A stretch of DNA of 64,000 nucleotides from Dehalococcoidia bacterium (lineage in GTDB: Bacteria > Chloroflexota > Dehalococcoidia > SM23-28-2 > RBG-16-64-32), in assembly GCA_030649945.1 (NCBI GenBank), contig JAUSFE010000054.1:1-64000 (forward strand), in the 5' to 3' direction. Shown here piece after piece: positions 1-28,559 of this stretch. The notes beneath the pieces are model-generated. The model did no database searches and was not told the origin of the DNA. It was given only the letters and a program-made list of their open reading frames with translations. The position numbers and the translations under genes are program-made. How positions within the stretch are numbered: the first letter of the stretch is position 1; each line of letters opens with the position of its first letter.

Positions 1-738
1 ACCGGCGAGTTCGTCCGCGCCTACGTGCTCGGCGAGCGGCACGGCGTCAGCAAGATGTCCGCGCTCGGCACCATCGCCGTGGAGCGCGTATTCGACGGCG
101 TGGTGCTCGTCGGCTTCCTGGTAGTGGCGGGCGCGATCCTGGGGCTCAACGGGGAGCTCACGGCACTCGCCATCGGTATGTCCGTCGCGTTCGCCGCCCT
201 GCTCGCCCTGTTCGTCTACGTCGCGTCGTCCCCGGAGAGGGCCCGCCGCTGGACGGAGCGGGCGATCGGGCTCCTCCCCAGCACGGTGCGGCAGCGCGCG
301 CAGGGGCTGGCCGGCTCTTTCCTCGACGGCCTCCAGAGCCTCCAGAGCCCTTCGCTCGTCGTCCTCATGCTCGGCACGTCGCTGGTCGCCTGGCTCCTGG
401 AGGCGTTCATGTACTACCTCGTGGGCCGCTCGTTCAGCATCGATGAGGGGTTCGCGGCCTACATGATGGTGGCCGCGGCCGCCAACCTGGCGATCACCCT
501 GCCATCGACCTCCGGCGGCATCGGCCCCTTCGAGCTCCTCACGAAAGAGACGCTCACCTTCCTGGGCGCCGGCTCCTCTGTCGCCGGCGCCTACGCCATC
601 GCCCTGCACGGCTTCCTCCTCCTGCCGGTCATCGCCGCCGGGCTCGTGTTCCTGTGGGCGATCAACCTCTCGCTGGGCAGGACGCTGGGGGAGGCTGGGG
701 GCGAGCCGCGGGCCGCGCTGGCGGAGCAGCCGGAATGA
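1..738 (+). CDS. Lysylphosphatidylglycerol synthase/flippase-like TM protein (3' part)
   Basis: The reading frame is open from base 1, so the gene begins upstream of the window; about 245 C-terminal residues are present. The opening residues TGEFVRAYVLGE followed by TIAVERVFDG match the conserved GE..RA.L / ERV.D pattern of the LPG-synthase transmembrane family (PF03706, UPF0104). PSTSGGIGPFE near residue 170 matches the family's P..GG(I/L)G..E loop, and several hydrophobic segments follow. Family members are integral membrane proteins; some transfer or flip lysyl-phosphatidylglycerol, and many sit in glycolipid loci with unknown substrate. The stop overlaps the next start (ATGA), so the two genes are probably translationally coupled. 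The exact substrate is not determinable. Confidence 0.85.
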   Translation, partial: TGEFVRAYVLGERHGVSKMSALGTIAVERVFDGVVLVGFLVVAGAILGLNGELTALAIGMSVAFAALLALFVYVASSPERARRWTERAIGLLPSTVRQRAQGLAGSFLDGLQSLQSPSLVVLMLGTSLVAWLLEAFMYYLVGRSFSIDEGFAAYMMVAAAANLAITLPSTSGGIGPFELLTKETLTFLGAGSSVAGAYAIALHGFLLLPVIAAGLVFLWAINLSLGRTLGEAGGEPRAALAEQPE

Positions 739-2084
739 GCGGCGAGCCCCAGACCGTCGGCGTCATCGGCGGCGGCGTGGCCGGCCTCACGGCAGCCTAC
801 CGGCTCCTCCAGAAGGGTTATCGTATCCACTTGTTCGAAGCGGGCCCTCAGCTCGGCGGGCTGGTGCGCACGTTCGAGATCGGCGGCGAGCCGATCGAGT
901 GCTTCTACCACCACCTGTTCAGCACCGACACCGCCGCCATCCGCCTGATCGGAGAGATGGGCCTGGGCGACCGGCTGACCTGGCGCCCGTCGAAGGTCGG
1001 CATCTTCTACGGCGGCCGAACTTATCCCTTCGTCACGCCTCTGGACCTGCTGCGCTTCACGCCCGTCAGCGTCATCGACCGCGTGCGGCTAGGGCTGATG
1101 GGGCTGTACCTGCGGCGTCAGCGCGACGGCTCCCGATTCGAGGGTGTGACCGCCAAGGAGTGGGTACGGCGGTTCGCCGGGCAGCGCAACCTGGACGTGG
1201 TATGGGGACCGCTCCTACGGGGGAAGTTCGGTGAGCTGAGCGACCAGCTGGTGATGACCTGGCTGTGGAACAAGATCCACCTGCGGTTCGCGTCGCGCGG
1301 CGCGGGGCCTGCGCAGCGGGAAGTTCTGGGCTACCTGCTGGGCTCCTTCGGAGCCTGGATCGACGCTCTCATCGGCCGCATCCGCGAGCTGGGCGGCACG
1401 CTGGAGGCCGGCCGGCCCGTCCAGCGGATCGTGTCGGAGGGGGGCCGCGCCGGGGTCGAGCTTGATGGGGAGCGGACCGTCTTCTTCGACGCCGTCGTGG
1501 CCACCGTGGCCAACAAGATCTTCCGCCGCATCGCTCCTCCCCTGCCCGATGACTACGCCGCCAAGCTGGAGGGAGTCCCTTACCAGGACGCGCTCTGCCT
1601 GGTGCTGACCCTAAAGAAACCGCTATCATCCATCTACTGGCTGAACATCAACGACCGCTCGATGCCCTTCCTGGCCCTCATCGAGCACACCAACCTCATC
1701 GAGCCGGAACGCTACGGAGGGCAGCATGTGCTCTACGTGTCCAACTACCTGGACAAGCAATCGCCCCTGCTGAAGATGAGCACTGACGAGATCTGCGACC
1801 TCTACCTGCCGCACTTCAGGCGTATCAACCCAGACTTCGACGAGGGCTGGATCAACAACCGCTGGCTGTTCCACGGGCCGGACGCGCAGCCCGTGTTCAC
1901 GGTGGGCGCCGGCGCGCGCATCCCTGAGCACCGGACGCCGGCGCCGGGACTGTACCTTGCCAACATGAGCCAGATATACCCGCAGGACCGCGGCCAGAAC
2001 TACTCCATCGTTCTCGGAGAGACGATCGCGGAGACGGTCGCGGCGGACCTCAGCCGCGCCGGGGCCGCCCGGTACCAGGTGTAG
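735..2084 (+). CDS. NAD(P)/FAD-dependent oxidoreductase (amine-oxidase/protoporphyrinogen-oxidase-like)
   Basis: The product has 449 residues from the ATG that overlaps the upstream stop; a longer in-frame start at 654 lies inside the upstream gene and is rejected. A Rossmann dinucleotide-binding motif VGVIGGGVAGLTAAYRLL is at residues 8-25, followed by the acidic end of strand 2 and GGLVRTF, as in flavin amine oxidases. A second FAD-contact region, APGLYLANMSQIYPQDRGQN, is near the C-terminus. Relatives include protoporphyrinogen oxidase, HpnE-like desaturases and UDP-galactopyranose-mutase-like proteins found beside glycosyltransferases. Position suggests action on a lipid or sugar-nucleotide intermediate of the surface glycan pathway. 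That is inference; the fold assignment is solid. Confidence 0.82.
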   Translation: MSGEPQTVGVIGGGVAGLTAAYRLLQKGYRIHLFEAGPQLGGLVRTFEIGGEPIECFYHHLFSTDTAAIRLIGEMGLGDRLTWRPSKVGIFYGGRTYPFVTPLDLLRFTPVSVIDRVRLGLMGLYLRRQRDGSRFEGVTAKEWVRRFAGQRNLDVVWGPLLRGKFGELSDQLVMTWLWNKIHLRFASRGAGPAQREVLGYLLGSFGAWIDALIGRIRELGGTLEAGRPVQRIVSEGGRAGVELDGERTVFFDAVVATVANKIFRRIAPPLPDDYAAKLEGVPYQDALCLVLTLKKPLSSIYWLNINDRSMPFLALIEHTNLIEPERYGGQHVLYVSNYLDKQSPLLKMSTDEICDLYLPHFRRINPDFDEGWINNRWLFHGPDAQPVFTVGAGARIPEHRTPAPGLYLANMSQIYPQDRGQNYSIVLGETIAETVAADLSRAGAARYQV

Positions 2085-2096
2085 CGCCGCGCCGGC

Positions 2097-4970
2097 CTAG
2101 TCCGGCAGTGACGCGGCGGGCCGGAACTGGGGCAGGCCGTAGATCGTGACGGATTCGTTCTCGAAGACAGGGACCATGAACCGCCGGAACTTCCCCAGGC
2201 CGCTCTCGCCGTACCGCTCCCGCTCCATGCGCCCGGCGTAGACGAACTCCACATCGTACTTGGCCATGAGGGCCATCGCCAGCTCCACGTCCGCCGTCGT
2301 GTAGATCGTCGCCACGTTATTCTGGACATCCGTGATCGGCGTCACCTCGCCGCTGGCGCTGGTCACCGATCCGTACCCCCGCCACTGGAGCTCGTGGCCA
2401 AGCCAGCCCATCACGGTAGGCAGGCCCGTCCGCCCGGACACCCGGCCGAAGTCGCTGTAGTCCGCGCCTACAGCCTCCAGCACCACCGGCGTTCCGGAGA
2501 CGTTCTCCTTCAGCCAGCGGATCGCCTCAGCCTCCTCCGGGTCTGACTGCTCGTCGTACGCCAGGCCGTCCAGCCGCTGCGTGTTCCTGAAACCGCCCGT
2601 GCGCTCCAGCGTCACCGTCACCGGGTACACGAGCGCGGCCGAAAGGAGGACCGCCGTCAGGCCGATCCAGACCAGCCGCGGGAGGGCCAGCGAGAAGCGT
2701 GCGCGCCGCGCGGCGGCGAACGCCGCGAGCGCGACGATGGAGCCCCCCGCGATGAGCAGTCCCAGGTTGGCCGTCCACCACTTCGAGTAGAGGCTGTTCC
2801 GGGGGTCAACGGCGACGAGCACGGTGTACGCGAAACCGAACAGCACCCCCCCGGCGGCCAGGTGCTGCCACTGCACCTCACCCAGCCGCACGTCCGGCAG
2901 CCGCCAGCGCTCCGTCAGCCGGTAGAGGCCGAAGCCACCCACGATGCCCATGACGATCCACGCCTGGTGCCAGAACCTGAACACCGTGTTCGCCCGCCAG
3001 CCGAACAGGTCATCCACAAGGAAAAACTCCGCGCCCAGCAGCATGATGAAAGCGAACCCTGCCAGGTGGAAGGCGAACAGTTGACTCAGGTCCCGCTCCC
3101 AGGCAGGCGTTCGCAGCTGGTGGATGAACGACACCCCGGTCGCCGTGACGAACACCGCGAGCATGAGCACCGTGATGACGTTCGCGCCCCGCACCGATAT
3201 CTCATCGGCCAGGCCGGCGAGGCCAGCGCGCGAGATGATGACGATTGTCCATACCGCGATCGGCGCCGCCCACAGGAGACCCGCCGCGGCCAGGACGGAC
3301 GGCCGCACGGCCTCCCGCCGTGCGGCCCACACGTACATCGCGATGAACGAGAGCCCTGCCCAGATGGCCGGCGCCCAGAACAGCAGGAAGTGAAGTGGCC
3401 GCGTAACCTCCGACCTCAGCGGCACCCGGCCTATGATGGTGGCCTGCGTGACGGTGAGCCCTTTGACCGGGGTGGCCAGCTCCATGTAGAAGGGAAGGTA
3501 GAAGACGTACGCGGCGACGGCCAGCGGCAGAGCGAAGCCCGCCGTGTCCAGTAGCGTCCGGGGCAGGCTACCGCTGCGGAGCCAGTTCGTGACGGCGGCC
3601 GCCGTGGCCAGCAGCAGCCACGTTATGACGACACCCCAGGTGTCGATGAAGGCGACGCCGCCGAACAGCAGCGCCATGAAGACGAAAGCGCCGGGGTCGC
3701 GCAGCCACCACCTCGCATCGAGACCCGCTTCGCGGCCACCTCCAGCCGTCGCACGGCGAGCCGACACGGCCGCCAAAACCCACATCGCGCCAGCGGTGGC
3801 GAGCGTCAGCGCGGCGGCGACAGGCACCGGCGCCCCGGCGACTATCGCGGCGGCGAGGACGGCGCCGCCCACGGCGAAGGCGCCGATCCAGGCCGGCCCG
3901 AAACGTCCCGACCACCAGCCCCGGAGCCCGCTTTCATCCGGGCGCCGGCCTCGCGCCATGAGCACCACCTGGAACGCCACGGCGAAGGCCACGATGAGGA
4001 ACGGCATCAACAGGACGTGCGGATGCAGGTCCCCGAACTGGAAGCTGAAGAACGGGAACTCCTGGATGTCGAACGCGGAGCCCATGCGGGTGGCCTTCCA
4101 CCACCACCAGTACTGGGTCGGATACCATTCGCTGCAGTACGTGGGCACGGCGGAGCAGTCGTAGGTGCCGTTGAGGTTCCAGATACCGACGAGGCCGTAG
4201 AAGCCCTTCGAGCCGATGCCGTGCCGGGCCATCAGCTCGAAAACCCCCGCCAGGTTGCTGACGACGATGATCGAGAAGCTGCTCGCGAGCCCGAACACGA
4301 CGGCCCGCGGCGCCAGGGACAGCCCTTCGGCCGTTACCCAGCCCCGCCGGCGGCTGACTTCGATCATGTTGTAGACAAGGCCAAACGCGGCCACCCAGGC
4401 GAGGGCCGCCATCAGCGAGAGGCTCAGATAGAACGTCACCTCGGTGCCGAGGGCGACCAGCTTGGACAGCGCCGAGACCATCACATAGCCGAAGTAGTAG
4501 TAGCTGATGGAGTGCCCGGCCAGCCACGGGTCTCCCGGCGGGAAGAACTCGCTGCGGTTCACGGCGTTCAGGAACGCCAGCTCGAACGGTTTCTCCCCCA
4601 AGACGATGTCCGGCGCGAACGAGCGTATGTAGACGGCGGCGGCCAGCACCACCAGGAACATCGCCTCCACCAGCGCCATGTACCGCCAGCCCGAGCGGAG
4701 GAAGCGGGCCATCTCCCGCCGCCGCCGTCCCACGACAGCAAGCGAGAGTCCCGCGATCAGGAAGAGGATGAGGATCACCGAGCCACGGCTATTGGGGATG
4801 AGGCCGGCTACCGCTCCGGCCCAGAGGCCGTATCCGAGCAGCAGCAGCCCCACCACCTTGCAGAAGGCAAAGCCTCGGTCAGGGAGCCGACCGAAGAAGG
4901 CGTAGGTCAGGGGGAACGCGGCCAGGCCCACCGCCTCGATGCCGACCCACCAGACGATGAACTCTCTCAT
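2097..4970 (-). CDS. DUF2298 / Chlor_Arch_YYY integral membrane protein (copy 1)
   Basis: The product is about 957 aa, very hydrophobic, with many predicted membrane segments. The hallmark YYYFGY occurs after PPGDPWLAGHSIS, and a soluble C-terminal domain (about the last 170 residues) contains IRWLKENVSGTPVVLEA, GLPTVMGWLGHELQWRG and a KYDVEFVYAGRMERERYG segment. The same layout is found in the proteins at 20507-25108 and 25151-27538, so these are three paralogs. TIGR03662 describes this family as hydrophobic proteins of unknown function in Chloroflexi and Archaea; a GT-C-like glycosyltransferase role is commonly suspected. I chose ATG at 4970 over GTG at 4973; no clear ribosome-binding site precedes either. 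It is convergent with the FAD oxidoreductase. Confidence 0.88.
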   Translation of the reverse strand: MREFIVWWVGIEAVGLAAFPLTYAFFGRLPDRGFAFCKVVGLLLLGYGLWAGAVAGLIPNSRGSVILILFLIAGLSLAVVGRRRREMARFLRSGWRYMALVEAMFLVVLAAAVYIRSFAPDIVLGEKPFELAFLNAVNRSEFFPPGDPWLAGHSISYYYFGYVMVSALSKLVALGTEVTFYLSLSLMAALAWVAAFGLVYNMIEVSRRRGWVTAEGLSLAPRAVVFGLASSFSIIVVSNLAGVFELMARHGIGSKGFYGLVGIWNLNGTYDCSAVPTYCSEWYPTQYWWWWKATRMGSAFDIQEFPFFSFQFGDLHPHVLLMPFLIVAFAVAFQVVLMARGRRPDESGLRGWWSGRFGPAWIGAFAVGGAVLAAAIVAGAPVPVAAALTLATAGAMWVLAAVSARRATAGGGREAGLDARWWLRDPGAFVFMALLFGGVAFIDTWGVVITWLLLATAAAVTNWLRSGSLPRTLLDTAGFALPLAVAAYVFYLPFYMELATPVKGLTVTQATIIGRVPLRSEVTRPLHFLLFWAPAIWAGLSFIAMYVWAARREAVRPSVLAAAGLLWAAPIAVWTIVIISRAGLAGLADEISVRGANVITVLMLAVFVTATGVSFIHQLRTPAWERDLSQLFAFHLAGFAFIMLLGAEFFLVDDLFGWRANTVFRFWHQAWIVMGIVGGFGLYRLTERWRLPDVRLGEVQWQHLAAGGVLFGFAYTVLVAVDPRNSLYSKWWTANLGLLIAGGSIVALAAFAAARRARFSLALPRLVWIGLTAVLLSAALVYPVTVTLERTGGFRNTQRLDGLAYDEQSDPEEAEAIRWLKENVSGTPVVLEAVGADYSDFGRVSGRTGLPTVMGWLGHELQWRGYGSVTSASGEVTPITDVQNNVATIYTTADVELAMALMAKYDVEFVYAGRMERERYGESGLGKFRRFMVPVFENESVTIYGLPQFRPAASLPD

Positions 4971-5088
4971 CACGCTGAAGCTTACCCGACGCCCTGACTC
5001 TGTCGCCAGGCCGCCTGCGCGCCCGGCCCCGGTCCTATACTCCGTGGTGGCCGGACGCGTCAGGCCGGGGCCGCTGAGCCGGCGGCGC

Positions 5089-6193: not shown

Positions 6194-6274
6194 CTCTTTT
6201 CTGCGCGGGGCGGGAGGGGGTGCTTCCGCTCCGCAACTTCGACCCTAATGTAACAGGCAGCCGAGGGCCGTGGG

Positions 6275-6306: not shown

Positions 6307-6345
6307 GTGAGAAGGTTGGGGCGGCATTGCGCCCCGCGACCCGGC

Positions 6346-6430: not shown

Positions 6431-8197
6431 ATGACCAGTCCTAGGCGCCGCCGTCAGCCGGCCCACGGCGCCCGCGTCCCGGCAGTGACAGACGCCGCTG
6501 TGGAGGCCATGGAGCCGGGGCCGGAGGCCGCCGTCGTCGTCCGTATCAGCCTGGACGGCGTCCTGTGGCTGGCGCTAATCGTCTTGGCGGTGGCCCTTCG
6601 ATTCTTCAGCCTCGACCGGCTACCCTTCAGCGAAGCCGAAAGCGCCCGCGCCTTCGCCGCCTGGGCCGTCTCCGGGGGTAGCGTGCCCGACGGCTGGCCC
6701 GGAGACGTCACCGCCGCCCTGACATCGCACCTATTCCGCATCTTCGGCTCCAGCGAGACAGTGGCGCGCATCATCCCCGCCATCGCCGGCTCCGCCCTCG
6801 TGGCGTCGTTCTGGTTCGCCGGGCGTTACGTCGGCCGCGGCGTAGCCCTGCTGGCGGGGGCGCTCATCGCCCTATCGCCGCTGGCCGCGTACACCTCGCG
6901 CTCCGCCTTCGGCTTCGCCCTGGGCGGCCTCCTGTCGATGGTGATGGTGCTGTCGCTGCTCGCCTACGTTGAGCGGCCGCGACAGCTGCCAGCCGTCATC
7001 CTCTTCGCCGCCTTCGGCCTCGCCCTCGGCAGCGATCCGATCGCGATCTCCACGGCCGTCGCCCTCATAGCCTTCGTTACGGTCGAAGCGGCCTGGCGGC
7101 CCGGCGGCGACGTCGGAGAGGCGGTTGCAGCCTTCCGGTCAACCCGCGACCACTGGCGGCCCGCCGCACTGGCCCTGGCAGTGACGTTGGCGCTGGGCGT
7201 AGCCCAGTTCGGCACCGGCATCGACCGGTTGAGCCTGGCCGGGCTGCGGCAGTGGGCGGGGATGTTCGACCTGCCGCGCGACGGCCTGCCCTGGCACTAC
7301 CAGCTATCCCTGCTCCTCGCCTACGAGTGGCCGCTTCTCCTTGCCGGAGCCGCCGGTTACCTGCTCCTGATCGACCGCTGGCGGCGATCGCGAGGGCTTT
7401 CGCTGGTCCAGCGCCTGCTGGCCGTCTGGGCGACGGTGGCGATCGTGACGGTGGCGTTCGCGACCCGCCGCGAGTCAGGTCAGCTCCTCCTCCTTCTCCT
7501 GCCCTTTTCCCTGATTGCCGCATCTCTGATCCAGGAGGTCGTGTCGAGAACGGACTGGAGCATCCTGAGGCGCTGGTGGCCGGCGGTTGCCCTCGTTCTC
7601 GCCCTCGGCGTGTACGTCGCCCTCCAGCTCTCCCGCTGGTCCCACGGCGGCCCGTTCCCGGGCAGCGAGAAGTCGTACACCGTCCTGGCGCTTCTCGCCG
7701 GCGTAGCCGTCGTCCTCGCCGGCATCTACTTCCTCCAGCGCAACCGCCCCTCGTTCGCCCTGCCCATCGTGGCCACCCTGGCCCTTCCCTTCCTCGTTCA
7801 CTCCAGCCTGTCGCTGGGCCTTCGCGACGGCGCCGAGTTCGCCGCCGATAGTCGCGGCACAGCCGGCATCGCAGCCTTCCGCGCCACGGTAGCCCGCGCC
7901 GCGGCGGAGGCCGGGATGCCGGCGACGGTCGACCCGAGCCTCCACGATCCCCTGGCCTGGCACTTGAGGGACGTCGCCGTGGCGTTCGGCGACCCGACAG
8001 ACGGTTCGCCCATCGTGACGGCGGCGGGGGGGGAGCCGCCGGCGGGCTATGAACCGCTGGGCGCCCCCTGGCGTATATCAGAGAGTTGGGTGTTAGACGA
8101 TTTTGACCCACTGCCAACCTGGCGATGGTTCGTTTATCGGAAGGGATACGGTACCCTGTCAACGATGGACGTGCAGATACTGGTGCCCGCGCAATGA
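6431..8197 (+). CDS. GT39-like (GT-C) membrane glycosyltransferase
   Basis: The product is 588 aa with a short charged N-terminus and about a dozen hydrophobic segments. The first extracytoplasmic loop, RLPFSEAESARAFAAWAVSG, sits where GT39/ArnT-type GT-C enzymes carry their acidic catalytic pair; here it reads EAE. The C-terminal roughly 130 residues are more polar. GT39 relatives transfer a sugar from a polyprenyl-phosphate donor on the outer face of the membrane. The gene is translationally coupled (ATGA overlap) to the TIGR03663 gene downstream, so the two probably act together. Specific donor and acceptor are unknown. The assignment rests on topology and this loop, so the family name is less certain than the membrane-enzyme call. 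Confidence 0.7.
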   Translation: MTSPRRRRQPAHGARVPAVTDAAVEAMEPGPEAAVVVRISLDGVLWLALIVLAVALRFFSLDRLPFSEAESARAFAAWAVSGGSVPDGWPGDVTAALTSHLFRIFGSSETVARIIPAIAGSALVASFWFAGRYVGRGVALLAGALIALSPLAAYTSRSAFGFALGGLLSMVMVLSLLAYVERPRQLPAVILFAAFGLALGSDPIAISTAVALIAFVTVEAAWRPGGDVGEAVAAFRSTRDHWRPAALALAVTLALGVAQFGTGIDRLSLAGLRQWAGMFDLPRDGLPWHYQLSLLLAYEWPLLLAGAAGYLLLIDRWRRSRGLSLVQRLLAVWATVAIVTVAFATRRESGQLLLLLLPFSLIAASLIQEVVSRTDWSILRRWWPAVALVLALGVYVALQLSRWSHGGPFPGSEKSYTVLALLAGVAVVLAGIYFLQRNRPSFALPIVATLALPFLVHSSLSLGLRDGAEFAADSRGTAGIAAFRATVARAAAEAGMPATVDPSLHDPLAWHLRDVAVAFGDPTDGSPIVTAAGGEPPAGYEPLGAPWRISESWVLDDFDPLPTWRWFVYRKGYGTLSTMDVQILVPAQ

Positions 8198-11100
8198 GCG
8201 AGCTGGCAGAGCCGATCGCGGCCAGGGGCGGCGAAGAGGGGCTGCTGGACCGCCTCGTCGCCGTGCGCCTGCAGGTCAACTGGCAGGTGGCCGCTTACGC
8301 CGCCCTGATCATCGTGGCGGGCGGCATGCGCTTCTGGGACCTGGGCGCGCGAGCCCTTCACCATGACGAGAGCCTGCACGCCTGGACCGCCTGGAAGCTG
8401 TTCGAGGGGCAGGGCTACCAGCATGAGCCGTGGATGCACGGCCCCTTCCAGTTCTTCGGGACTGCCGCCTCGTTCTTCCTGTTTGGAGTGACCGACTACA
8501 CCGCCCGCATCCTGCCGGCCTTCCTGGGTTCGGCCCTGATAGCGCTTCCCTTCTTCCTGCGGAAGCGCCTGGGGACGACCGGCGCCCTCCTGGCCGCGGC
8601 CGGCATCGCCTTCTCGCCGACGCTGCTCTACTTCAGCCGCTTCGCCCGCAACGATATCTACATGGCCCTGTTCACGCTGGGTCTGGTGATCTGCCTCTGG
8701 CGCTACGTGGACGAACGCAAGCCCCGCTATCTGTACCTGGCGGGGCTGATCCTGGGACTCGCCTTCGCCACAAAGGAGAGCACCTTCATCAACACGGCGG
8801 TGCTGATCGTCTTCCTCAACATCTGGATGGCGGTCCATTTCTGGCGCCAACTGCGCGACCGCAACCGGCTGGACAGCCTCTCCTCCGCCAGCGCCCTCGC
8901 GCTTCTGCTGCCGTTCGCCTGGGCCGTGGCCGCCCTCTGGCCGTTCACGAGCCGCTGGCGCGACCGCATCGGCCTCAGGGACTGGCACCCCGCCGCCGAC
9001 TTCCTGATCGTCTTGGGCACGCTGACGCTGCCGCAGTTCGCGGCCGCCGTCCAGGTGCCCCTCGACGCCCTGTTTGGCATCGACAACTCCGACCTGGCAC
9101 GGGCTGCCAGCGGCCACACGCGGGAGAACGTGCTCGGCCTGTTCACCATCCTTGGCCTCATAGCAGCGTCGGCCGCCATCGGCGCGCGCTGGAACGCGCG
9201 CATGTGGGGCGTAGCGGCGCTGGCGTTCTACGTGCCCTACGCATTGCTGTACACCTCGCTGTTCACGAACCTGGACGGCTTCTACTCCGGCCACTGGGGG
9301 GCGCTGAACTACTGGCTGGACCAGCAGGACGTCGCCCGCGGCGAGCAGCCCTGGTTCTACTACCTGATGCTCCTCCCCGCCTACGAGTTCCTGCCGCTGG
9401 TGTTCGCTGCGCCCGCCCTGATCTACTACACCCTGCGGGGCGACATCTTTCGGCGCTTCCTGGTATTCTGGTTCGCCGCCACCGTGTTTGGGTACAGCGT
9501 GGCCGGTGAGAAGATGCCCTGGCTGAGCGTGAACCCGACGCTGCCGCTGATCATCATCGCCGCCCTGTTCCTGGGCGAGGTGCTGACCTCCGGGCTGCCC
9601 CGGCGAGCGGTCTCACGCCTCCAGCCCTATATGGAGCCGCTGGCGGCCGCCGCCCTGGGGCTGGCCGCGGTGGCGCTGGGGCTGTTCGGGCCGGACGGAG
9701 GCGGGTGGGTCGCCCTGCGCGTGCTGGCGATACTGGCCGCGTCCGCGGGTATCGTCTGGCTGCTGCTGCCCGTCAGCCCGGCCTCGGCGGCGTCCGGGAG
9801 GACGGGACGCCGCCGGCGCAAGAGCGAGCCGCTGCCCCCGGCGGACCACCGGCGCACGGCCGCCCTCGGATGCGCCGCCGTCGCCGGCGGGCTTCTCGCC
9901 GCCACCCTGTTCGTCGGCATCCGCCTCACCTATCAGCTCGGCGATGTCCCCAGGGAGCTGCTCGTCTACACGCAGACCTCCCCTTACGTGCCGGACGTCG
10001 TCGAGAGCATTGAGGCCGCCGGCCGCAACTCCGGCCTCAACAAGGACCTCCCGGTGGTCGTCGACGGCGGGATCGAGCCCTGGGAATGGTACCTGCGCGA
10101 CTACTCCCGGCTGCAGTACGCATCGGTGGGTGAAGGGTTCCAGCCGCCGCCGGGTGCGGTGGTGATAGCACTGGCCAGCAACGAGTCGGCGATGCTGCCC
10201 CAGGCAGACCAGTACCAGGAGCCGGTGCGCTTTCCCCTCCGCTGGTGGTTCCCCGAGTTCGACACCTACAAGATGGTGCCCACGGCGGACGTGATCCGGG
10301 GCATCCACCCCAGCGTCGTGCCGCGGCTCCTGGACTGGTTCATCGCATCGCTCTTCCGGCCCGGCACCTGGGACAACTGGTGGCAGTACTTCCGCTACCG
10401 AAACCCACCGGCGACCACCACCACACCCGAGGACCGTCTGGGCAGGTTAGACATGGTGGCCTACTTCCCGAAGCAGTACGTGGTGGAGCTGCCGGAGGGA
10501 TCTCCCCAACCTCCGGTTACCACGCCGATCCCCCAGCCGTCCCTTCCCCCGCTGCAGCAGCTCTCCGTCGAGCTCGTCCTGGGCCAGCCGGGCGACGAGC
10601 CGGGCTCCTTCAACAAACCCGGCGGCCTCGCCCTCGACGCCGCGGGCAACCTGTACGTCGCCGATATATTCAACCACCGCATCCAGAAGTTCGACCCGGA
10701 GGGGAACTTCCTGGCCCAGGTGGGCAGCCACGGCGAGGGCGAAGGCCAGTTCAACGAGCCCTGGGACGTCACAGTCGACGGCGAGGGGAACCTCTACGTG
10801 GCGGATACCTTCAATCACCGTATCCAGAAGTTCGACGCCGACCTCAACTTCCTCTTCGCCTTCGGCAAGCCGGCCTCCAACCTTGAGAACCCCGAGCCCG
10901 ACGCCTTCTGGGGACCCCGCGGCGTGGCCGTCGACGCCGACGGCAACATCTGGGTGGCGGACGGCGGCACCGGCCGCGTGGTCAAGTACGGCCCCGACGG
11001 CCACCTCATCCAGCCGTTCGGCAGTCTGGGCAGCGGACAGGGGCAGTTCAAGGAGCCCACCGACATTGTGATCGCGCCCGGCGGCGATGTCTTTGTGGCC

Positions 11101-16375: not shown

Positions 16376-16379
16376 CGGC

Positions 16380-16408
16380 AGAATATAGGCCCGTTCCCTC
16401 CAAGTCAA
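16380..16408 (-). promoter_or_regulatory. Leaderless-type promoter of the PQQ-dehydrogenase-like gene
   Basis: On the minus strand, TTGACT (16408-16403), 17-bp spacer, TATTCT (16385-16380). ATG starts 4 nt later, so transcription would begin at or inside the start codon. Confidence 0.65.
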
Positions 16409-20506: not shown

Positions 20507-23500
20507 GTGAGGAACTCTACTCGCATCCCTTGGGACATGGCTGCCGTCGCCTCCCAATGGTGGGCCGCCTTCAGACAGGATGAGTCAGCGCGCCGCCGAG
20601 CGGCTGTGGCTCTCGTGCTGGGCTTCGTGGTGGTGCTGGCCTTAAGCCTGCGCCTCACTGGCGTCAACTGGGACGGTGACCACCACCTGAACCCGGACGA
20701 ACGGTTCCTCTCCACCGTCAGCCCCACGATCCAGTTTCCCAGCGGTCCAGTCGAGTACTTCGACACCGCCGAATCACCCCTAAACCCGTACAACAAGGGC
20801 TTCCCAACCTACGTGTACGGGACGCTTCCCCTTTTCACCACGAAGGCCGTGGGCGAGTTCCTGGGCCTGGGCGGTTACAACGACGTGACGCGGGTAGGGC
20901 GAGTCCTCTCCGCCCTGGTAGACGTGGGAAGCGTTATCGTCCTCTTCCTGCTAGGCTCCTATCTGTTCAACCGCCGCGTCGGTCTCCTTGCCGCCTTCCT
21001 CCTCTCGGTCACCGTCCTCCATATCCAGTACTCTCACTACTTCGTTGTCGATAACTACCTCGCCTTCTTCAGCCTGGTGAGCATCTACTTCGCCGTCCGG
21101 GTAGCGAAGGAAGGGGGCTGGCGCAACTTCGCCCTCGCCGGCGCCATGTTCGGCCTGGCCCTGGCCAGCAAGGGCAGCGCCGCGCCCCTGGCCCTCATCA
21201 TCACGATGGCAGCGGCCATCCGGGCCTGGCCCAGCGTCAGGGAACGTCTGGCGAATATGGAGCGGCCCGTCGCGCCAGCTACGGCCTCCTTCTGGCAAGA
21301 GCTCTGGTCCAGGGAGCTGAGGGAGACGCTACTGGGTCTGGCGCTGGCGGCCGGTCTGACCTTCGTCACCTTTCGCGTAGCCCAACCCTACGCCTTCGAT
21401 GGCCCCTGGCCATGGAGCATCTCCCAGGTCTGGCTGAACGACATCGATAGGGTGCTTGACATCCAGTCCGGCAAGGGGGCATTCCCGCCGTCAGTGCGCT
21501 GGATCGGAAGCACCCCCTACCTGTATCCGCTGCAGAACATAGCCCTGTGGGGGCTGGGTCTCCCTCTGGCGTTGGCTGCAGGGGGCGGCTTCCTTTACGC
21601 CGCCTGGCGCCTGGTGCGCCACCGCGAGCCCATCCTCCTGCTCCTGCTCACATGGGTTGCGGTCATCTTCGTCTGGCAGGGGGGCCGGTTCACCTCATAC
21701 ATGCGGTACGTCCTGCACATCTACCCGGTGCTGGTGCTTCTGGCGGCATATGGTCTGGTACAACTGTGGCAGGCAGCAAGGATCGGCACCCTCCCGGAAC
21801 GGATACAAAGGTTCTTGCCTGGGCCGGCTCGCCACTTGCCGCTGCTGGGGCGGGTGGCCGTAGCGGCCGTGGTTGTCCTGACACTTCTCTGGGCCCTGGC
21901 CTTCACCAACATTTACCGGCATCCCGTCACCCGAGTGGAAGCCTCAGGCTGGATCTTCGCCAACGTACCGCCCGGGAGCGCCATAGCCGTCGAGTCAGCC
22001 TGGGACGACGGCCTTCCGTTCCCCGTCGACGGCCACGACCCCGGCACAACGTACCAGTTCATCGACCTGCAGCTATACGACTTCGACACAGTGGAGAAGC
22101 GGGACGCGCTCGTCGCCAAGCTGGATGACGCTGACTACCTCACGATTTCCAGCGACCGGCTATACCGTTCGATCCCGCGCGCCCCCGCCGTCTATCCGAT
22201 GACGAGTCTCTACTACGAGCTCCTCTTTTCAGGGCAGCTGGGCTTCGATCGTATCAAGACGTTCACCTCTTTCCCCAGGCTGTTCGGCATCTCCATCTCC
22301 GACGACGGCGCCGAAGAGTCCTTCACCGTCTATGACCACCCCAAAGCGCTCATCTTCAAGAAGAGCGCTACCTTCTCTCGCGAGAAGGTAGCCCAGCTGC
22401 TGGGCGCGGCACCGGTAGAGACGGCGATGCTACTGTTGCCCGCCGACGCCGGGAAGAACGGCCTGCTCCTGCGGCCGGATGACCTCCGGACGCAGCGCAG
22501 CGGCGGCACCTGGACCGACATCTTCGACTCGAGCAGCTTCCCCAACGAGCACTCGAAGTACGCCTGGCTCGTCTGGCTCCTGCCGATACAGCTCGCCGCC
22601 CTGGCGCTGGTGCCCGCGGCCGTTCGGCTCTTCCGCTGGCTTCCCGACCGCGGCTACCTGCTGACGAAGCCCCTGGGCCTTCTCGTCGTGTCGTATCTGG
22701 TGTTCACGGGCGTCAGCCTGGGGCTGGTGGAGTTCACGAGGGGCACTATCGAAGCAGCGATGCTTCTTGTCATCGCGCTGGGGCTCGTCTCGTACGTCGC
22801 GTGGCGGGAGCAGGTGCTCAGCTTCGTCCGCGAGCGCTGGCGCTCGATCCTGCTGGCGGAGGTCATCTTCATCGGCGCCTTCCTCGCTCTGTACCTGCTG
22901 CGCCTGGAGAACCCCGACCTCTGGCACCCGTTCCGGGGCGGCGAGAAACCGATGAACTTCGCCTATCTGAACGCGATAACCCGCAGCACGACCCTCCCTC
23001 CCTACGACCCCTGGTTCGCCGGCGGCTATCTGAACTACTACTACTTCGGTCACTTCATGACGGCCACTATGGTCAAGCTGACGGGCATCCTGCCGGAGAT
23101 TTCCTACAACCTGGCCGTTCCCCTCTTCTTCGCTTTCACCGTGGGGGTCACCTACTCGCTGGGGTACAACATGGCGGGCGCCGTTCGCAGCCGGCTGGCA
23201 AGCCGTCGCACGTCCGCGCGCGCCGTCGTAGGCGCGGGGCTGCTGGCGGTCGTCATGGTCGCGGTGGCGGGTAACCTGGACGCGATCGACCAGATGGCCG
23301 ACCGGCTATCGCTGATCAGCTCCTGGCACGTGGGCAGCGGCATCCCATTCATCAGCGGAGCGGTGGGCACGCTGGGCGGCCTCTGGGAGGTAATCTTCGG
23401 CGGCACCGGACTGCCCACCATCGATTACTGGCGCCCCAGCCGGATGATGGCCCCCACGATCAGCATCACGGAGTTCCCCTTCTTCAGCTTCCTGTTCGCG

Positions 23501-25108
23501 GACCTGCACGCCCACGTCATGGCGATCCCCTTCGCCATCACCTCGCTGGGCATCGGGCTGGCGCTGGTGCAGACCGGAGCCGCCGAGAGGCGACCGGGCA
23601 GATGGCTGCCATCTCCCAACCGGCTCCTGCTGGCGGCTCTCCTGGCCCTGGTGCTGGGAGCCCTGCGCTGGATCAACTCCTGGGACTACCCAACCTTCCT
23701 TCTCGTCGGAATCGCTGCTCTGCTCATCTGTGAGCGGGCCTCCGAGGGTCGCTTCAGCTGGCCCCTGGTCGTGCGGGGCGCCGTTGGCTCCGGGCTGATC
23801 GTGTTCCTCTCTGTCCTGCTGTTCTACCCCTTCCAGGCGGACTACGAGCAGTTCCAGGCGGGCCTGCACCCCACCGTGGAGACTACGGTCCTCCGCCAGT
23901 ACTTCTCCCACTTCGGGCTGTTCATCGTGACCATCGCCGGCCTTCTGACGTTCCTCTGGACGCGGAGGCTCCGCCGGACGGAGTGGCGCGACGCCGCCCT
24001 CCAGTTCATCGCCGTCGCCTTCGGCCTCGTATTCCTCACCGTGCTCCTTCTCGCCCTCTCCAAGCCGCTGGCAGGGTTCATCCCGATCTCCGTGACCGGC
24101 CTCTCCGCCGACCAGTTCCTGGGAGACCTCGTGAGCGTCCGCCTTTCGTCCGGCTCCGCTCCCAGCTTCGGCCTGCCGCTGCTGCCCTTCGCCTATCCCG
24201 CCCTCGCCGCCGTCATCGTGCTAGCCTGGCACGAACTCAGGCGCGATCTGCCCGACTCGCCCCTCCGGCTGTTCATCCTGGCGATGCTGGCGATGGCGCT
24301 GGGGCTCAGCATCGGTGTCGACGTCGTCAACATAGACGGCGACATCCAGCGGATGAACACGGTCTTCAAGTTCTACGTGCACATCTGGCTCCTGCTGGCC
24401 CTGGTCTCCGCTTTCGGAGCCTGGTATCTCCTGGTGGCGGTCCGCCCACCGCCTGCGAGCGCGCAACCTGCGCCGTTACAGCTCTCCCTTCTGAGAGCGC
24501 GGCGGCTCTGGGCGGCGGCGCTAGTCCTCCTCCTGCTGGGCGCCCTCCTCTACCCCCTCCGGGCCACGCCGGCCCGCCTCGACGACCGCTTCCTGGAGCT
24601 GCCGCGCACGGTGAACGGCGCGGCCTTCATGGAGCAGGCGACATACCAGGACGCCAACGGCCCCGTCATCCTCGCGCAGGACCTGTACGCGATCCAGTGG
24701 CTGCGAGACAACGTCGAAGGGTCGCCGGCAATCATGGAGGCGAACACGCCGCTCTACAGCTGGGGCTCCCGCTTCTCCATCTATACCGGCCTGCCGACTG
24801 TAATCGGATGGGACTTCCACCAGGTGGTGCAGCGGGGCAAGTTCGCATCCCAGATAGCGGCGCGCCAGGCGGACGTCTCCCAGTTCTACAGCAACCCCAA
24901 CCCCGCGGAGGCCCTGCGTATCCTCAAGAAATACCAGGTGTCATACGTCATCGTCGGTCAGTTGGAGCGGCTCTATTACCCGGCGGCTGGCCTGGCGAAG
25001 TTCGACGATAACCTGGGCGGCGCCCTGGAGCTCGTCTACGAGAACCCCGGCAACAAGATCTACAGGATCAAGACCCAGGTTCTGCAGCCCCTGGCGATCT
25101 CTCCCTGA
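20507..25108 (+). CDS. GT39-like domain fused to DUF2298/YYY domain (1533 aa)
   Basis: This giant polytopic protein has two halves. The N-terminal half (about residues 40-690) is GT39-like: WDGDHHLNPDERFLSTVSP has the acidic loop motif, followed by helices and a polar outside domain (TRVEASGWIFANVPPGSAI). The C-terminal half (about 690-1533) starts with SKYAWLVWLLPIQLAALALV and PDRGYLLTKPLGLLVVSYL. It carries the hallmark LNYYYFGHFM after PPYDPWFAGGY and ends in the same soluble domain as the two stand-alone YYY proteins (IQWLRDNVEGSPAIMEAN, GLPTVIGWDFHQV, KYQVSYVIVGQLERLYY). It is the only fused copy here. GTG 20507 follows GGGGGG; ATG 20537 is an alternative. It is convergent with the third YYY gene. 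Confidence 0.88.
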   Translation: MRNSTRIPWDMAAVASQWWAAFRQDESARRRAAVALVLGFVVVLALSLRLTGVNWDGDHHLNPDERFLSTVSPTIQFPSGPVEYFDTAESPLNPYNKGFPTYVYGTLPLFTTKAVGEFLGLGGYNDVTRVGRVLSALVDVGSVIVLFLLGSYLFNRRVGLLAAFLLSVTVLHIQYSHYFVVDNYLAFFSLVSIYFAVRVAKEGGWRNFALAGAMFGLALASKGSAAPLALIITMAAAIRAWPSVRERLANMERPVAPATASFWQELWSRELRETLLGLALAAGLTFVTFRVAQPYAFDGPWPWSISQVWLNDIDRVLDIQSGKGAFPPSVRWIGSTPYLYPLQNIALWGLGLPLALAAGGGFLYAAWRLVRHREPILLLLLTWVAVIFVWQGGRFTSYMRYVLHIYPVLVLLAAYGLVQLWQAARIGTLPERIQRFLPGPARHLPLLGRVAVAAVVVLTLLWALAFTNIYRHPVTRVEASGWIFANVPPGSAIAVESAWDDGLPFPVDGHDPGTTYQFIDLQLYDFDTVEKRDALVAKLDDADYLTISSDRLYRSIPRAPAVYPMTSLYYELLFSGQLGFDRIKTFTSFPRLFGISISDDGAEESFTVYDHPKALIFKKSATFSREKVAQLLGAAPVETAMLLLPADAGKNGLLLRPDDLRTQRSGGTWTDIFDSSSFPNEHSKYAWLVWLLPIQLAALALVPAAVRLFRWLPDRGYLLTKPLGLLVVSYLVFTGVSLGLVEFTRGTIEAAMLLVIALGLVSYVAWREQVLSFVRERWRSILLAEVIFIGAFLALYLLRLENPDLWHPFRGGEKPMNFAYLNAITRSTTLPPYDPWFAGGYLNYYYFGHFMTATMVKLTGILPEISYNLAVPLFFAFTVGVTYSLGYNMAGAVRSRLASRRTSARAVVGAGLLAVVMVAVAGNLDAIDQMADRLSLISSWHVGSGIPFISGAVGTLGGLWEVIFGGTGLPTIDYWRPSRMMAPTISITEFPFFSFLFADLHAHVMAIPFAITSLGIGLALVQTGAAERRPGRWLPSPNRLLLAALLALVLGALRWINSWDYPTFLLVGIAALLICERASEGRFSWPLVVRGAVGSGLIVFLSVLLFYPFQADYEQFQAGLHPTVETTVLRQYFSHFGLFIVTIAGLLTFLWTRRLRRTEWRDAALQFIAVAFGLVFLTVLLLALSKPLAGFIPISVTGLSADQFLGDLVSVRLSSGSAPSFGLPLLPFAYPALAAVIVLAWHELRRDLPDSPLRLFILAMLAMALGLSIGVDVVNIDGDIQRMNTVFKFYVHIWLLLALVSAFGAWYLLVAVRPPPASAQPAPLQLSLLRARRLWAAALVLLLLGALLYPLRATPARLDDRFLELPRTVNGAAFMEQATYQDANGPVILAQDLYAIQWLRDNVEGSPAIMEANTPLYSWGSRFSIYTGLPTVIGWDFHQVVQRGKFASQIAARQADVSQFYSNPNPAEALRILKKYQVSYVIVGQLERLYYPAAGLAKFDDNLGGALELVYENPGNKIYRIKTQVLQPLAISP

Positions 25109-25150
25109 CCAGAGGCTGGGCTCGCCGCGCGGGCCGGCGGCCACGCCCGC

Positions 25151-27538
25151 CTACGGCGTCGTGACCAACGACTGTGCCGCGTGCCGCTCGTATATTGTGG
25201 CCTCGTCGTTCTCAAAGGCCACGCGCATGAACCGGCGGAACTTCTCCAGGCCCGCCGGATCGTACTTCTCCCGCTCTAGATAGCCGACGTACACGATCTC
25301 GACGTCGTACTTGTCCAGGATAGCGATCGCCTCCTGGATGTCCGTCGTGTTGTAGGCGGTGTCGATGTCCTCTCTCCTTGTTCCCTGAGGCGCGAAGGAG
25401 CCCCGCCACTGATTCTCGTGTCCCGCCCAGCCCAGGACCGTGGGCAGGCCGGTGTAAGCGGAGCGGCGCGAGAACTCCGTGAAACTATCGCCGGGAGCCT
25501 CCATCAACACCGGTGTCCCTTCGATGTTGCCCCTCAGCCACTGGATCGCCTCATACTCACCCGGGCGGAAGCTCTTCAGGAAGGCGAGCCCGTCCAGCGT
25601 CGACGGCGTGCTCAGCCCTTCGGTGCGAGCGAGCGTTCCGGTCACAGGATAGACGAGGCCGCCTAGAAGCAGCAGCACGGCGCTTCCGACGAATACACCG
25701 TACGGGATACGGGACAGGGGCCCCCGCGGCCGCCAGTCTCGCAGCAGGGAGTAGCCGGCGAACGCCGAGCCGAGCGCCAGGAGCAGCCAGGCCACGTACC
25801 AGCCCTTGAAAACCGTATTGAGCCTGGGAAGGTTGCCGACGAACACGTCCTTGATAAAGAACAGCTCCGACCCGACGAGTACGAGCAGCGCCAAGGCGGC
25901 GATGGCGAGGCCGAAGAGGATCGCGGTATCGCCCTCGTCCTCGGGCGCCGGCGAGACGTTCCTCACCACGGCCAGGACCAGCAACGCCAGCGTAGCGGTC
26001 AGCCAAGCCAGGGTCAGCCAGCCAGCGCCGCTACCAGCGGCTGCCGAGGAGCCGCCGGAACCGATGATCGGGTGGAGCAGGGCCCAGGCCAGCAGGGGGG
26101 CCAGCGCCACGCCCGCTGCCGCCGCCACCTGGCCGAGGCTGAACCGCCAGCCCTGCCGGTGCCTGCTGATCGCGTAGACGGCGAGGGCTGTGATCAGCAG
26201 CAGGAACAGACCCCACTGAATGAACAGGTGGAACGGCTTGGTAGCCGGCCCTCCCGTGGTCAGGATTCCCGACGCCGGGGTTTCATAGCTCCAGTAGAAC
26301 GGCAGGTACACCAGGAGCGACCCTAGGCTGAGTAAGCCCCCGAACAGAGCCACCGAGACCAGTGCCCCTCGGCCGACGCGGCCCGGTTTCCTGAACTGGC
26401 GCAAGGCGAAGACGACTACTAGTAACACCAGGGCCACGGGAAGATTGACGGTATGGACGAAGCCGACTCCCCCTACCAGGATGAGCATAAGCAGAAAGCC
26501 CGCCGGCCGGCGCCATGCCGAGGCACCGTCGTCGTTGACGGCGAAGATGTTCCAGGCTATCGCCACGGTCAGCAGGAGGAAGGGGATGGCCATGAAATGC
26601 GGGTGGAGGTCTCCCAGAAGAAAACTGAAGAAGGGGAACTCGGTTATCACGTCCGGAGTTCCCGCCGGAAAGATCCGGGCGGAGCGGAACCACCACCAGT
26701 TCTCCGTCGGGTACCAGGCGCTGCTCTCCCTGGGGCCATCGAGCCCGCCGACATCGACCCATTTGTAGAGGGCGTGCCAATCCAGACCGTGCACGGCCGC
26801 CAGCTCCGCCACGCCGAGGTAGTTGCTGAAGATGAGCAGGGTCACCACGCCAAGCAACCCGGCCGCAACGGCGCCATACTTCAGCCAGCCGCGGACCGGG
26901 CGCGCGACTGCGTCCCAGCTGCCGGAGGCGGCCAGGTTATAGACGATGCCGAACGCCGCCACCGCGGCGAGCGCCATAACCAGCGCCAGCGCCAGGTTGT
27001 AGCCGATGATGGAGCCAACGCCGGTCAGCTCCGTCTGCATCGCCGCGATGAAGTAGCCGAAGTAGTAGTAGTTCATCTCGTTGCCGGACAGCCACGGATC
27101 GTTCGGTGGGATTGACGAGTCGCGGACGAGGCTGCTGAGCAGAGCGACATCCATCGGCTGCTCGGTATGGCCGATCACGTTGATAAACGACCGAACCCAG
27201 ACCGCGCCGAAGAACGACACGGCAAACAGGATCTCCACAAGCAAGAGGAACCGCCAGTTTTCGCGAATGTAGGTCTGCAGCTCTTGGCGATATCGCCCTG
27301 CCATCCCCAGGCCCACGATGGCGAAGAGGAGCAGGAGGAAAATCACGGAACCGCGACTATTGGGGAGAAGGCCAAGCGTCGCGCTTAACCAGAGCGTGTA
27401 GCCCACGAGCACCAGGCCGACAAACTTGGCCAGGGTGTAGCCACGGTCCTTCAGACCGCCGAAGAAAGCGAAGGCCACCGGGAAGGTTATCGCCCCCAGC
27501 ACTTCAAGGGAGAACCACCAGCCCAGAGCATCCCACAC
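25151..27538 (-). CDS. DUF2298 / Chlor_Arch_YYY integral membrane protein (copy 3)
   Basis: The product is 795 aa. GTG start is preceded by GGAG at 7 nt. It contains PPNDPWLSGNEMNYYYFGYF, the family hallmark, SAWYPTENWWWFRSARIFP (also seen as a WYPTQYWWWWKATRM segment in copy 1), and a C-terminal soluble domain with IQWLRGNIEGTPVLMEAP, GLPTVLGWAGHENQWRG and KYDVEIVYVGYLEREKY. It is shorter than copy 1 but collinear with it. Function is unknown; by context and co-occurrence it belongs with the TIGR03663 protein in a membrane glycan or lipid pathway. The 3' end faces the 3' end of the fusion gene, only 42 bp apart. Confidence 0.88.
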   Translation of the reverse strand: MWDALGWWFSLEVLGAITFPVAFAFFGGLKDRGYTLAKFVGLVLVGYTLWLSATLGLLPNSRGSVIFLLLLFAIVGLGMAGRYRQELQTYIRENWRFLLLVEILFAVSFFGAVWVRSFINVIGHTEQPMDVALLSSLVRDSSIPPNDPWLSGNEMNYYYFGYFIAAMQTELTGVGSIIGYNLALALVMALAAVAAFGIVYNLAASGSWDAVARPVRGWLKYGAVAAGLLGVVTLLIFSNYLGVAELAAVHGLDWHALYKWVDVGGLDGPRESSAWYPTENWWWFRSARIFPAGTPDVITEFPFFSFLLGDLHPHFMAIPFLLLTVAIAWNIFAVNDDGASAWRRPAGFLLMLILVGGVGFVHTVNLPVALVLLVVVFALRQFRKPGRVGRGALVSVALFGGLLSLGSLLVYLPFYWSYETPASGILTTGGPATKPFHLFIQWGLFLLLITALAVYAISRHRQGWRFSLGQVAAAAGVALAPLLAWALLHPIIGSGGSSAAAGSGAGWLTLAWLTATLALLVLAVVRNVSPAPEDEGDTAILFGLAIAALALLVLVGSELFFIKDVFVGNLPRLNTVFKGWYVAWLLLALGSAFAGYSLLRDWRPRGPLSRIPYGVFVGSAVLLLLGGLVYPVTGTLARTEGLSTPSTLDGLAFLKSFRPGEYEAIQWLRGNIEGTPVLMEAPGDSFTEFSRRSAYTGLPTVLGWAGHENQWRGSFAPQGTRREDIDTAYNTTDIQEAIAILDKYDVEIVYVGYLEREKYDPAGLEKFRRFMRVAFENDEATIYERHAAQSLVTTP

Positions 27539-27665
27539 GGGCTCGCTCCTACCGCCCTACCGGCCGGCTACCGTCATCCAGCACGATTCGATTCTAAGGG
27601 AGACGCGCGCCCCCTGGAAAGGGAGAGCTCACGCCTGCAGCCGTGAACCGGTGAGGTGTCAGGGG

Positions 27666-28559
27666 CTACCCGGCCGCGTGGTTCGACTTCTGGGCCACGA
27701 CCAAGAGGATGTCGCGAGAGCTGGCGTAGAACGAAATAGGTGGCACCGCTCGTGCCTTCCGGAGAAGGTTGACGAAAGGAGTGATAAACGGCGCGTACAG
27801 ACACAGCCGTTGCAGGAACAGCCGCAGTGAGACGTATTTGCCTTCATGCTTCATGCTGATGATCCGGAACCCGGCCTCCTCTAGGAAGCGCCGCATAGTC
27901 GCGCGGGAGAAATAGACCAGATGCTCGTCCAGCTTGTAGCCCATCCAACGATGCCCGAAAATCTTGGCCGCCATGCTGCCGACGTCTGGGGTGGCGAGGG
28001 CCAGAATCCCGCCATCGACGAGAAGCCTCCTCGCCTTGGCCAGATCCGCCTTCGGATCCAGAGTGTGCTCGAGGTAATCCCACATGGTTACGACGTCGTA
28101 ACGCTCTGAGGGCAGCTCCTCTTCCAAGAAGACGCCCGCTCGGACCCGGTCTCCGAGCCGCTCCTGGGCACGCTTTACTGCGTGCTCCGAGATGTCTATC
28201 CCGTGCACATCCCACGCCGCTTCAGCCGCGACCTCCAAGAACATCCCGTAAGCACACCCGACATCTAGCACAGCTGCCTTGCCCGGGTGTACCCCTTGAA
28301 GCGATTTCAATCGACGCCTGAACGTGCGATATATGTTCTCGCGATCGCCCTCGTAGTCGCTATACCCCAATTCGTTGGAGTTTGCGTTAGAGAAATACTC
28401 CTCGCCGTAGAGGGCAGTGAGCTCCGCCACCGCCGGCTGGGGATGAACGAACACCAGGTCGCAATCGAGGCAGCGCCACAGCCTGCCATTCAAGTATCTC
28501 GGCGGGAAGCGCTCACTCTCGCGCGACCCGCAGAGCATGCAGGTAGCTGTATCTTCCAT
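27666..28559 (-). CDS. Class I SAM-dependent methyltransferase with N-terminal zinc ribbon
   Basis: The product is 297 aa from ATG 28559 (GAGGA just upstream). Cys7, Cys10, Cys30 and Cys33 (CMLCG...CLDCDLVFVHPQP) form a treble-clef-like zinc site, as in many sugar or glycolipid methyltransferases of surface polysaccharide loci. The SAM-binding motif AVLDVGCAYGMFLEVA lies near residues 97-112, with the acidic end of strand 2 at VHGIDIS and post-motifs YDVVTMWDYLEHTLDP and LLVDGGILALATPDVG. It probably methylates a sugar or lipid intermediate of the locus. It has its own promoter (28604-28633). Confidence 0.85.
   Translation of the reverse strand: MEDTATCMLCGSRESERFPPRYLNGRLWRCLDCDLVFVHPQPAVAELTALYGEEYFSNANSNELGYSDYEGDRENIYRTFRRRLKSLQGVHPGKAAVLDVGCAYGMFLEVAAEAAWDVHGIDISEHAVKRAQERLGDRVRAGVFLEEELPSERYDVVTMWDYLEHTLDPKADLAKARRLLVDGGILALATPDVGSMAAKIFGHRWMGYKLDEHLVYFSRATMRRFLEEAGFRIISMKHEGKYVSLRLFLQRLCLYAPFITPFVNLLRKARAVPPISFYASSRDILLVVAQKSNHAAG

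Follow-up and report, generated by a model that had tools for sequence, protein, structure and literature searches.

YYY (DUF2298) proteins as probable GT-C-type glycan transferases in a Dehalococcoidia gene cluster with Agl23

The window analysed here is a stretch of 64,000 nucleotides from the start of contig JAUSFE010000054.1 of a Dehalococcoidia bacterium (assembly GCA_030649945.1; 142 contigs, 3.39 Mb, 91% complete), and the nearest named relatives of its proteins are from Chloroflexota. Its left end carries a cluster of membrane-protein genes that includes three members of the YYY family (TIGR03662; Pfam PF10060, DUF2298). This locus probably specifies an extracytoplasmic system for the assembly and transfer of polyprenyl-linked glycans, in which the YYY proteins would be transferases of the glycosyltransferase C (GT-C) type that resemble oligosaccharyltransferases (OSTs) but are distinct from STT3. 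The reading draws on computed fold, residue conservation, partnership and gene order. An earlier sequence-only reading of this DNA had proposed a polyprenyl-linked membrane glycoconjugate system around YYY and Agl23 (TIGR03663) proteins, shared with Archaea, and the core of that proposal withstood the two checks it had named in advance, one on the YYY fold and one on the presence of neighbouring glycosyltransferases.

The AlphaFold model of YYY protein 2 (25151-27538), built from 52 sequences, has a pLDDT of 89.9 and a pTM of 0.93. All of its matches in the PDB at E<1e-3 are GT-C enzymes, namely AglB (5e-6), the arabinosyltransferase AftA (1.5e-5) and the C-mannosyltransferase DPY19 (2.5e-4). 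The next matches are PglB, AftB, ALG3 and the isolated AglB C-terminal domain, and unrelated transporters match only at E values of at least 0.25. Model helices and loop charges together suggest a topology of three extra N-terminal helices, a 13-helix core, long external loops 1 and 2 (EL1 and EL2) on the outer face, and an outer alpha/beta C-terminal domain. STT3 and DPY19 are described with the same layout of a helix core and long outer EL1 and EL2 (PMC6801728). The YYY proteins differ from AftA and DPY19 in having no detectable sequence similarity to them and in their conserved motifs. DUF2298 may already be listed in the Pfam GT-C clan, in which case the fold assignment might not be wholly new.

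Conservation across 125 YYY sequences outlines a candidate active site. Fourteen residues are invariant wherever the letter is present (E126, R288, E300, P302, D310, H312, H314, R572, N574, W584, E680, G697, H707 and E755), and N362 in EL3 is kept in 123 of the 125. Among positions conserved in at least 97% of sequences, the predicted outer loops hold 13 polar residues and the inner loops hold none. A YYY from Pseudobutyrivibrio (Bacillota) retains the same charged residues, as does the available part of a haloarchaeal YYY, where the conserved residues were read directly. Model helices and loop charges place E126 where GT-C enzymes have an acidic residue, shortly after transmembrane helix 1 (TM1) in the first outer loop. 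STT3 and DPY19 carry an arginine and/or an acidic residue in EL2 and an asparagine in EL3 (PMC6801728); the YYY proteins have R288, E300 and D310 in the former and N362 in the latter. The second DxD-type motif of OSTs, found in EL2 and written D-x-H in AglB, has a counterpart in the invariant D310-x-H312. OSTs also carry a TIXE/SVSE glutamate in EL5; the conserved I-x-E motif of YYY proteins (mostly VIDE or TITE) instead falls in EL2. In AglB, the metal ligands are D47 of EL1 and D161 and H163 of the EL2 Asp-His-His motif (PMC8342417). The EL1 acid, EL2 D-x-H, EL3 asparagine and late-outer-loop arginine of YYY proteins appear to parallel these published sites. Since E126 and D310-x-H312 resemble the AglB metal ligands in position, the leading guess is a metal-assisted transferase with a putative metal site.

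YYY proteins fall into two old clades, one of solo proteins and one of proteins fused to a GT-C domain; most solo entries that group with the latter are truncated at the end of a contig. Every invariant residue is kept in both classes, which suggests two working enzymes that may act together or sequentially. The idea that the fused YYY is a dead copy is ruled out by the same retention. TIGR03662 is a family without a stated function, to which the present analysis adds a predicted GT-C fold, the separation of two ancient classes and a wider host range.

The partnership between YYY and Agl23 is close to strict among 301 Chloroflexota genomes, for which counts are raw and uncorrected for relatedness. 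Strong YYY matches occur in 198 genomes and strong Agl23 matches in 190; both are present in 188, YYY alone in ten, Agl23 alone in two and neither in 101. This agrees with the co-occurrence of TIGR03662 and TIGR03663 cited in the sequence-only reading. Haloferax volcanii and Methanosarcina acetivorans also carry both families. In the window, these families are encoded in the following cluster (curated cut-offs are 300.25 bits for TIGR03662 and 126.25 bits for TIGR03663).

1-738 (open reading frame 25-738), forward strand: C-terminal part of a flippase-like LPG_synthase_TM/TIGR00374 membrane protein (PF03706, 1.8e-24; TIGR00374, 48.1 bits against a cut-off of 43.2)
735-2084, forward strand: FAD-dependent amine-oxidase-like oxidoreductase of the PRK07233 type (NF005560, 479 bits)
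2097-4973, reverse strand: YYY protein 3 (DUF2298/TIGR03662), 958 amino acids, solo class by its clade in the tree (TIGR03662, 403.7 bits)
6431-8197, forward strand: Agl23-like GT-C protein, 588 amino acids (PMT_2, 4.9e-7; TIGR03663, 72.7 bits, below cut-off)
8125-11430, forward strand: Agl23 (TIGR03663), a GT-C domain joined to an NHL beta-propeller at its C-terminal end, 1101 amino acids (TIGR03663, 254.2 bits; NHL match)
11450-12538, forward strand: secreted NHL propeller encoded on its own, sharing 80% identity with that of the Agl23 fusion
12699-13214, forward strand: GtrA/DPMS transmembrane-domain protein (PF04138, 2e-21)
13327-15114, forward strand: GT-C-like membrane protein of the PTPS_related type, weak (PF10131, 18.3 bits, below the cut-off of 26.4)
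16464-17318, reverse strand: GT2 protein of the polyprenyl-phosphate-sugar synthase (Dpm1/Alg5) type (PF00535)
18626-20308, reverse strand: GT-C/PMT_2 protein, 560 amino acids (PF13231, 8.4e-9)
20507-25108, forward strand: GT-C-YYY fusion, 1533 amino acids, with a PMT_2/GT-C domain at about 1-640 and a YYY domain at 687-1522 (TIGR03662, 525.1 bits)
25151-27538, reverse strand: YYY protein 2 (DUF2298/TIGR03662), 795 amino acids, solo class, the protein modelled (TIGR03662, 492.9 bits)
27666-28562, reverse strand: S-adenosylmethionine methyltransferase, Methyltransf_23 (PF13489, 8.1e-27)

Most of the inventory in the sequence-only reading is borne out by profile matches. All three YYY proteins exceed the family cut-off, with DUF2298 matches from 5.8e-76 to 4.6e-107, and all carry the YYYFG motif and other family motifs. 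The C-terminal motif GLPTV.GW..H..QWRG, attributed to all three, is exact in two, and the fused copy reads GLPTVIGWDFHQVVQRG. The one TIGR03663 protein recognized earlier is 8125-11430, which alone passes that cut-off; 6431-8197, 18626-20308 and the fused GT-C domain fall short. The FAD oxidoreductase, methyltransferase, GtrA protein and Alg5-like GT2 are as described, and the best solved relative of the last is dolichol monophosphate mannose synthase 5mlz (3.8e-17). Two of the three other GT-C enzymes claimed are GT-C/PMT_2 proteins (6431-8197 and 18626-20308) and the third, 13327-15114, is a sub-threshold match. The flippase-like protein exists, but it lies to the left of position 735, where the locus had been taken to start, and is truncated by the contig start. 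That reading made no mention of two fusions, which join a GT-C domain to the front of the YYY in 20507-25108 and an NHL propeller to Agl23, nor of the separate NHL gene, two genes for glucose/sorbosone dehydrogenase-like (GSDH) proteins and an LTD protein. The GSDH proteins are lipoproteins, 51% identical, encoded on either side of the GT2 gene (15167-16408, reverse strand; 17417-18562, forward strand). In the GT-C-YYY fusion, the first external loop of the GT-C domain holds a DE motif (HPDERF) in which D64 and E65 are invariant. Genes of the locus lie on both strands, so it is a cluster rather than a single operon.

Neighbourhoods were compared in 80 YYY loci, 42 of them full length, and in 40 control windows of 20 kb drawn at random from ten complete genomes. 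Of the 42 full-length loci, 37 have a GT-C gene no more than 10 kb from YYY, against one of the controls, and the association recurs in other phyla, so glycosyltransferases, the lack of which the sequence-only reading had held would tell against it, do neighbour YYY genes. Fused GT-C domains occur in 30 of the 42 and NHL genes in 13 of the 42. Relatives of the flippase-like protein are found in 16 of the 80 YYY/Agl23 loci (11 of the 42), of the methyltransferase in 13 (10 of the 42) and of the FAD oxidoreductase in 13 (eight of the 42). None of these five features is seen in any of the 40 controls. In the usual arrangement, a solo YYY directly follows a GT-C-YYY fusion and is itself followed by Agl23-like proteins, which often carry an NHL domain. 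Loci of the Dehalococcoidia type repeat the order YYY, Agl23, flippase-like protein, FAD oxidoreductase, and many Anaerolineae have relatives of the 18626-20308 protein directly upstream of the fusion. In some genomes, a single reading frame of some 2,500 codons encodes two YYY domains. Relatives of GtrA, GSDH and LTD were found in none of the 80 loci, on which ground these three are rejected as core parts for Chloroflexota. Thus, the packed system described in the sequence-only reading holds for its YYY/Agl23/GT-C core and not for GtrA.

YYY genes also extend beyond Chloroflexota and Archaea. The FCPU426 locus comprises a fusion, a YYY gene, two NHL genes, methyltransferases, a GT2 gene and Agl23, and in Firestonebacteria GT2, YYY and Agl23 are consecutive. 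The Firestonebacteria YYY gene (2529-4895 of locus L106) is split over two frames of 518 and 267 codons by a frameshift or an assembly error. In Pseudobutyrivibrio, a YYY gene (8917-11172 of locus L119; 432 bits) belongs to a polysaccharide cluster on a plasmid, a setting that suggests horizontal transfer. The haloarchaeal YYY is likewise on a plasmid, where the gene match runs off the end of the record and has no annotated gene beneath it. The family name 'Chlor_Arch' is too narrow because members occur in Bacillota, FCPU426 and Firestonebacteria.

Several observations weigh against YYY proteins being GT-C transferases of a lipid-linked pathway. As a whole, the model superposes loosely on GT-C enzymes of known structure (TM 0.3-0.5, root-mean-square deviation about 15 Å, 10-15% identity), and the claim is therefore one of a predicted shared fold rather than close kinship. 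A sequence-profile search of the PDB with YYY returned only noise and no solved relative, and profile-profile comparison with the GT-C families of the same locus gave no significant match for the catalytic part (probabilities of 2.8 and 48.9). The GT-C hallmark Rx4-14P is incomplete, since R572 is invariant but the proline follows in none of the 125 sequences. The TM9-TM10 loop, where OSTs have the EL5 glutamate, holds no conserved acid. GT2 relatives occur in only two of the 80 loci, those of FCPU426 and Firestonebacteria, so that the GT2, present here as the sequence-only reading had it, is not conserved beside YYY genes in Chloroflexota. The loci were picked by similarity to one protein of the window and are related to one another. 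Finally, the part of the literature open to searching yielded no experiment on any YYY protein and no demonstrated activity, and no paper found there gives DUF2298/PF10060 a function.

Agl23, the constant partner, also appears to be a GT-C protein. Its model (pLDDT 82, pTM 0.83) has 19 matches at E<1e-3, all of them GT-C enzymes or STT3-containing complexes (AglB, ArnT, STT3 and PMT), and D81-E82 are invariant after TM1 in EL1. TIGR03662 and TIGR03663 had both been called families of unestablished function. This holds for the former, but Agl23 of Haloarcula hispanica, a TIGR03663 member acting in lipid-linked sugar pathways, has been studied genetically, and the purified protein translocated lipid-linked oligosaccharide in liposomes (PMC11182771). 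The 8125-11430 protein passes the TIGR03663 cut-off and differs from the Haloarcula protein in carrying an extracellular NHL propeller. The 80% protein identity between this propeller and the separate copy at 11450-12538 indicates a recent duplication. The predicted GT-C fold, which is unlike known flippase folds, and the EL1 Asp-Glu pair call a pure flippase role of Agl23 into question.

Other roles for the YYY proteins can be weighed with these data. They might be protein oligosaccharyltransferases that replace STT3/AglB and attach lipid-linked oligosaccharide en bloc to proteins of the cell surface, a reading that appears somewhat unlikely. AglB is the top structural match, C-terminal domain included, and shares the EL2 D-x-H motif. 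The organism's own genome has no match to STT3 (PF02516), and full-length STT3 (E below 1e-18) is found in seven of the 301 Chloroflexota genomes, only one of which has YYY; the near absence of STT3 from YYY genomes means that the YYY system does not need it. YYY proteins resemble STT3, AglB and PglB in the 13-helix core, outer alpha/beta C-terminal domain and acidic EL1, but differ in their three extra N-terminal helices, in having DUF2298 as their only Pfam match and none to PF02516, in lacking the WWD motif of the C-terminal domain (none of 125) and in having no EL5 TIXE motif in place. STT3 and YYY are present together in Haloferax and Methanosarcina, and for this reason YYY is not simply an STT3 replacement there. 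With these hallmarks and the TM9-TM10 acid missing, YYY proteins are not classed as OSTs, although they may work like one. Their C-terminal domain, put forward in the sequence-only reading as the acceptor-recognition part, may still serve in this way, with a predicted AglB-like fold but without the sequon-reading WWD.

It is likewise somewhat unlikely that YYY proteins instead elongate or ligate lipid-anchored or cell-wall polysaccharide from polyprenyl-phosphate monosaccharides, as mycobacterial AftA and Emb do. AftA ranks high among the structural matches, and the Pseudobutyrivibrio YYY lies among genes for an O-antigen ligase, a glucosyltransferase, GT2 proteins, an aminotransferase and a sugar epimerase. 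However, AglB scores higher than AftA and shares the C-terminal domain, and many monosaccharide-using GT-C enzymes lack the D-x-H metal motif. Improbable, too, is a role as scramblases or flippases that move polyprenyl-phosphate or -pyrophosphate sugars while GT-C partners carry out the chemistry. TIGR03663 is named for flippase activity, which the Haloarcula liposome assay supports, and a YYY-GT-C fusion could join a transporter to the enzyme it feeds. Yet the predicted YYY fold is that of a glycosyltransferase and not MurJ-, Rft1- or EamA-like, the strictly conserved charged residues are confined to one face as in an active site, and the Agl23 model is GT-C as well. That the 28 kb is a chance island of unrelated surface genes is very unlikely: genes on both strands and the absence of GtrA, GSDH and LTD relatives elsewhere would fit, and chance is possible for these three, but conserved order, fusions across many genomes, the excess of GT-C neighbours and genome-level co-occurrence contradict it for the YYY/Agl23/GT-C core.

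The favoured reading of YYY proteins as OST-like GT-C transferases would imply the following pathway, in which donor, acceptor, metal and direction are proposed. The Dpm1/Alg5-type GT2 would charge polyprenyl phosphate with sugar at the inner face of the membrane. Flippase-like proteins, Agl23 or both may then carry the charged lipid across, translocation by Agl23 having been published for Haloarcula only. GT-C enzymes with outer-face active sites would use the translocated lipid-linked sugar. YYY itself would be a glycosyltransferase of the OST/AftA/DPY19 type, with a likely active site formed by E126 (EL1), D310-x-H312-x-H314, E300 and R288 (EL2), N362 (EL3) and R572/N574 (TM11-TM12 loop). 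Like that of AglB, this site probably binds a divalent metal. Most likely, YYY moves glycan off a lipid carrier and onto an acceptor that its own C-terminal domain presents. A bolder version can be offered only tentatively: YYY might be the catalytic core of an STT3-independent, metal-dependent, OST-like machine, widespread in Chloroflexota and shared with Archaea, that transfers lipid-linked glycans to surface acceptors, with Agl23 acting as a GT-C enzyme in its own right and not as a dedicated flippase.

To the right of the glycan genes, the forward-strand gene 29393-31588 encodes a secreted protein that combines a prealbumin-like SpaA_4 domain with a stalk of Thr/Ala/Pro repeats (TATATATP units) and ends in a membrane anchor at the C-terminus, and it is conceivable that this stalk carries O-glycans. 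Thr-rich stalk proteins as acceptors of the system fared poorly in a crude test, such reading frames occurring in 20 of 42 YYY loci and in 28 of 40 random windows. A second Thr/Ala/Pro repeat protein of 874 codons (59623-62244, reverse strand) has a Gly/Asp-rich end resembling RTX calcium-binding repeats. Its gene accounts for the strong skew, in both GC and AT, of the 60-62 kb region, and the Val/Ala reading frame at 59993-62059 is its opposite-strand mirror image. PD40 propeller proteins are encoded at 31585-32763 and 34793-36859, the latter on 132-base tandem repeats.

About two thirds of the sampled Chloroflexota genomes retain the YYY/Agl23 system. Predicted placement among GT-C enzymes, together with candidate residues and a strict partner, would turn a domain of unknown function into a source of testable hypotheses about surface glycosylation without STT3 in bacteria and some archaea. 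For Agl23, a GT-C protein by predicted fold, it is the flippase label that is put in question.

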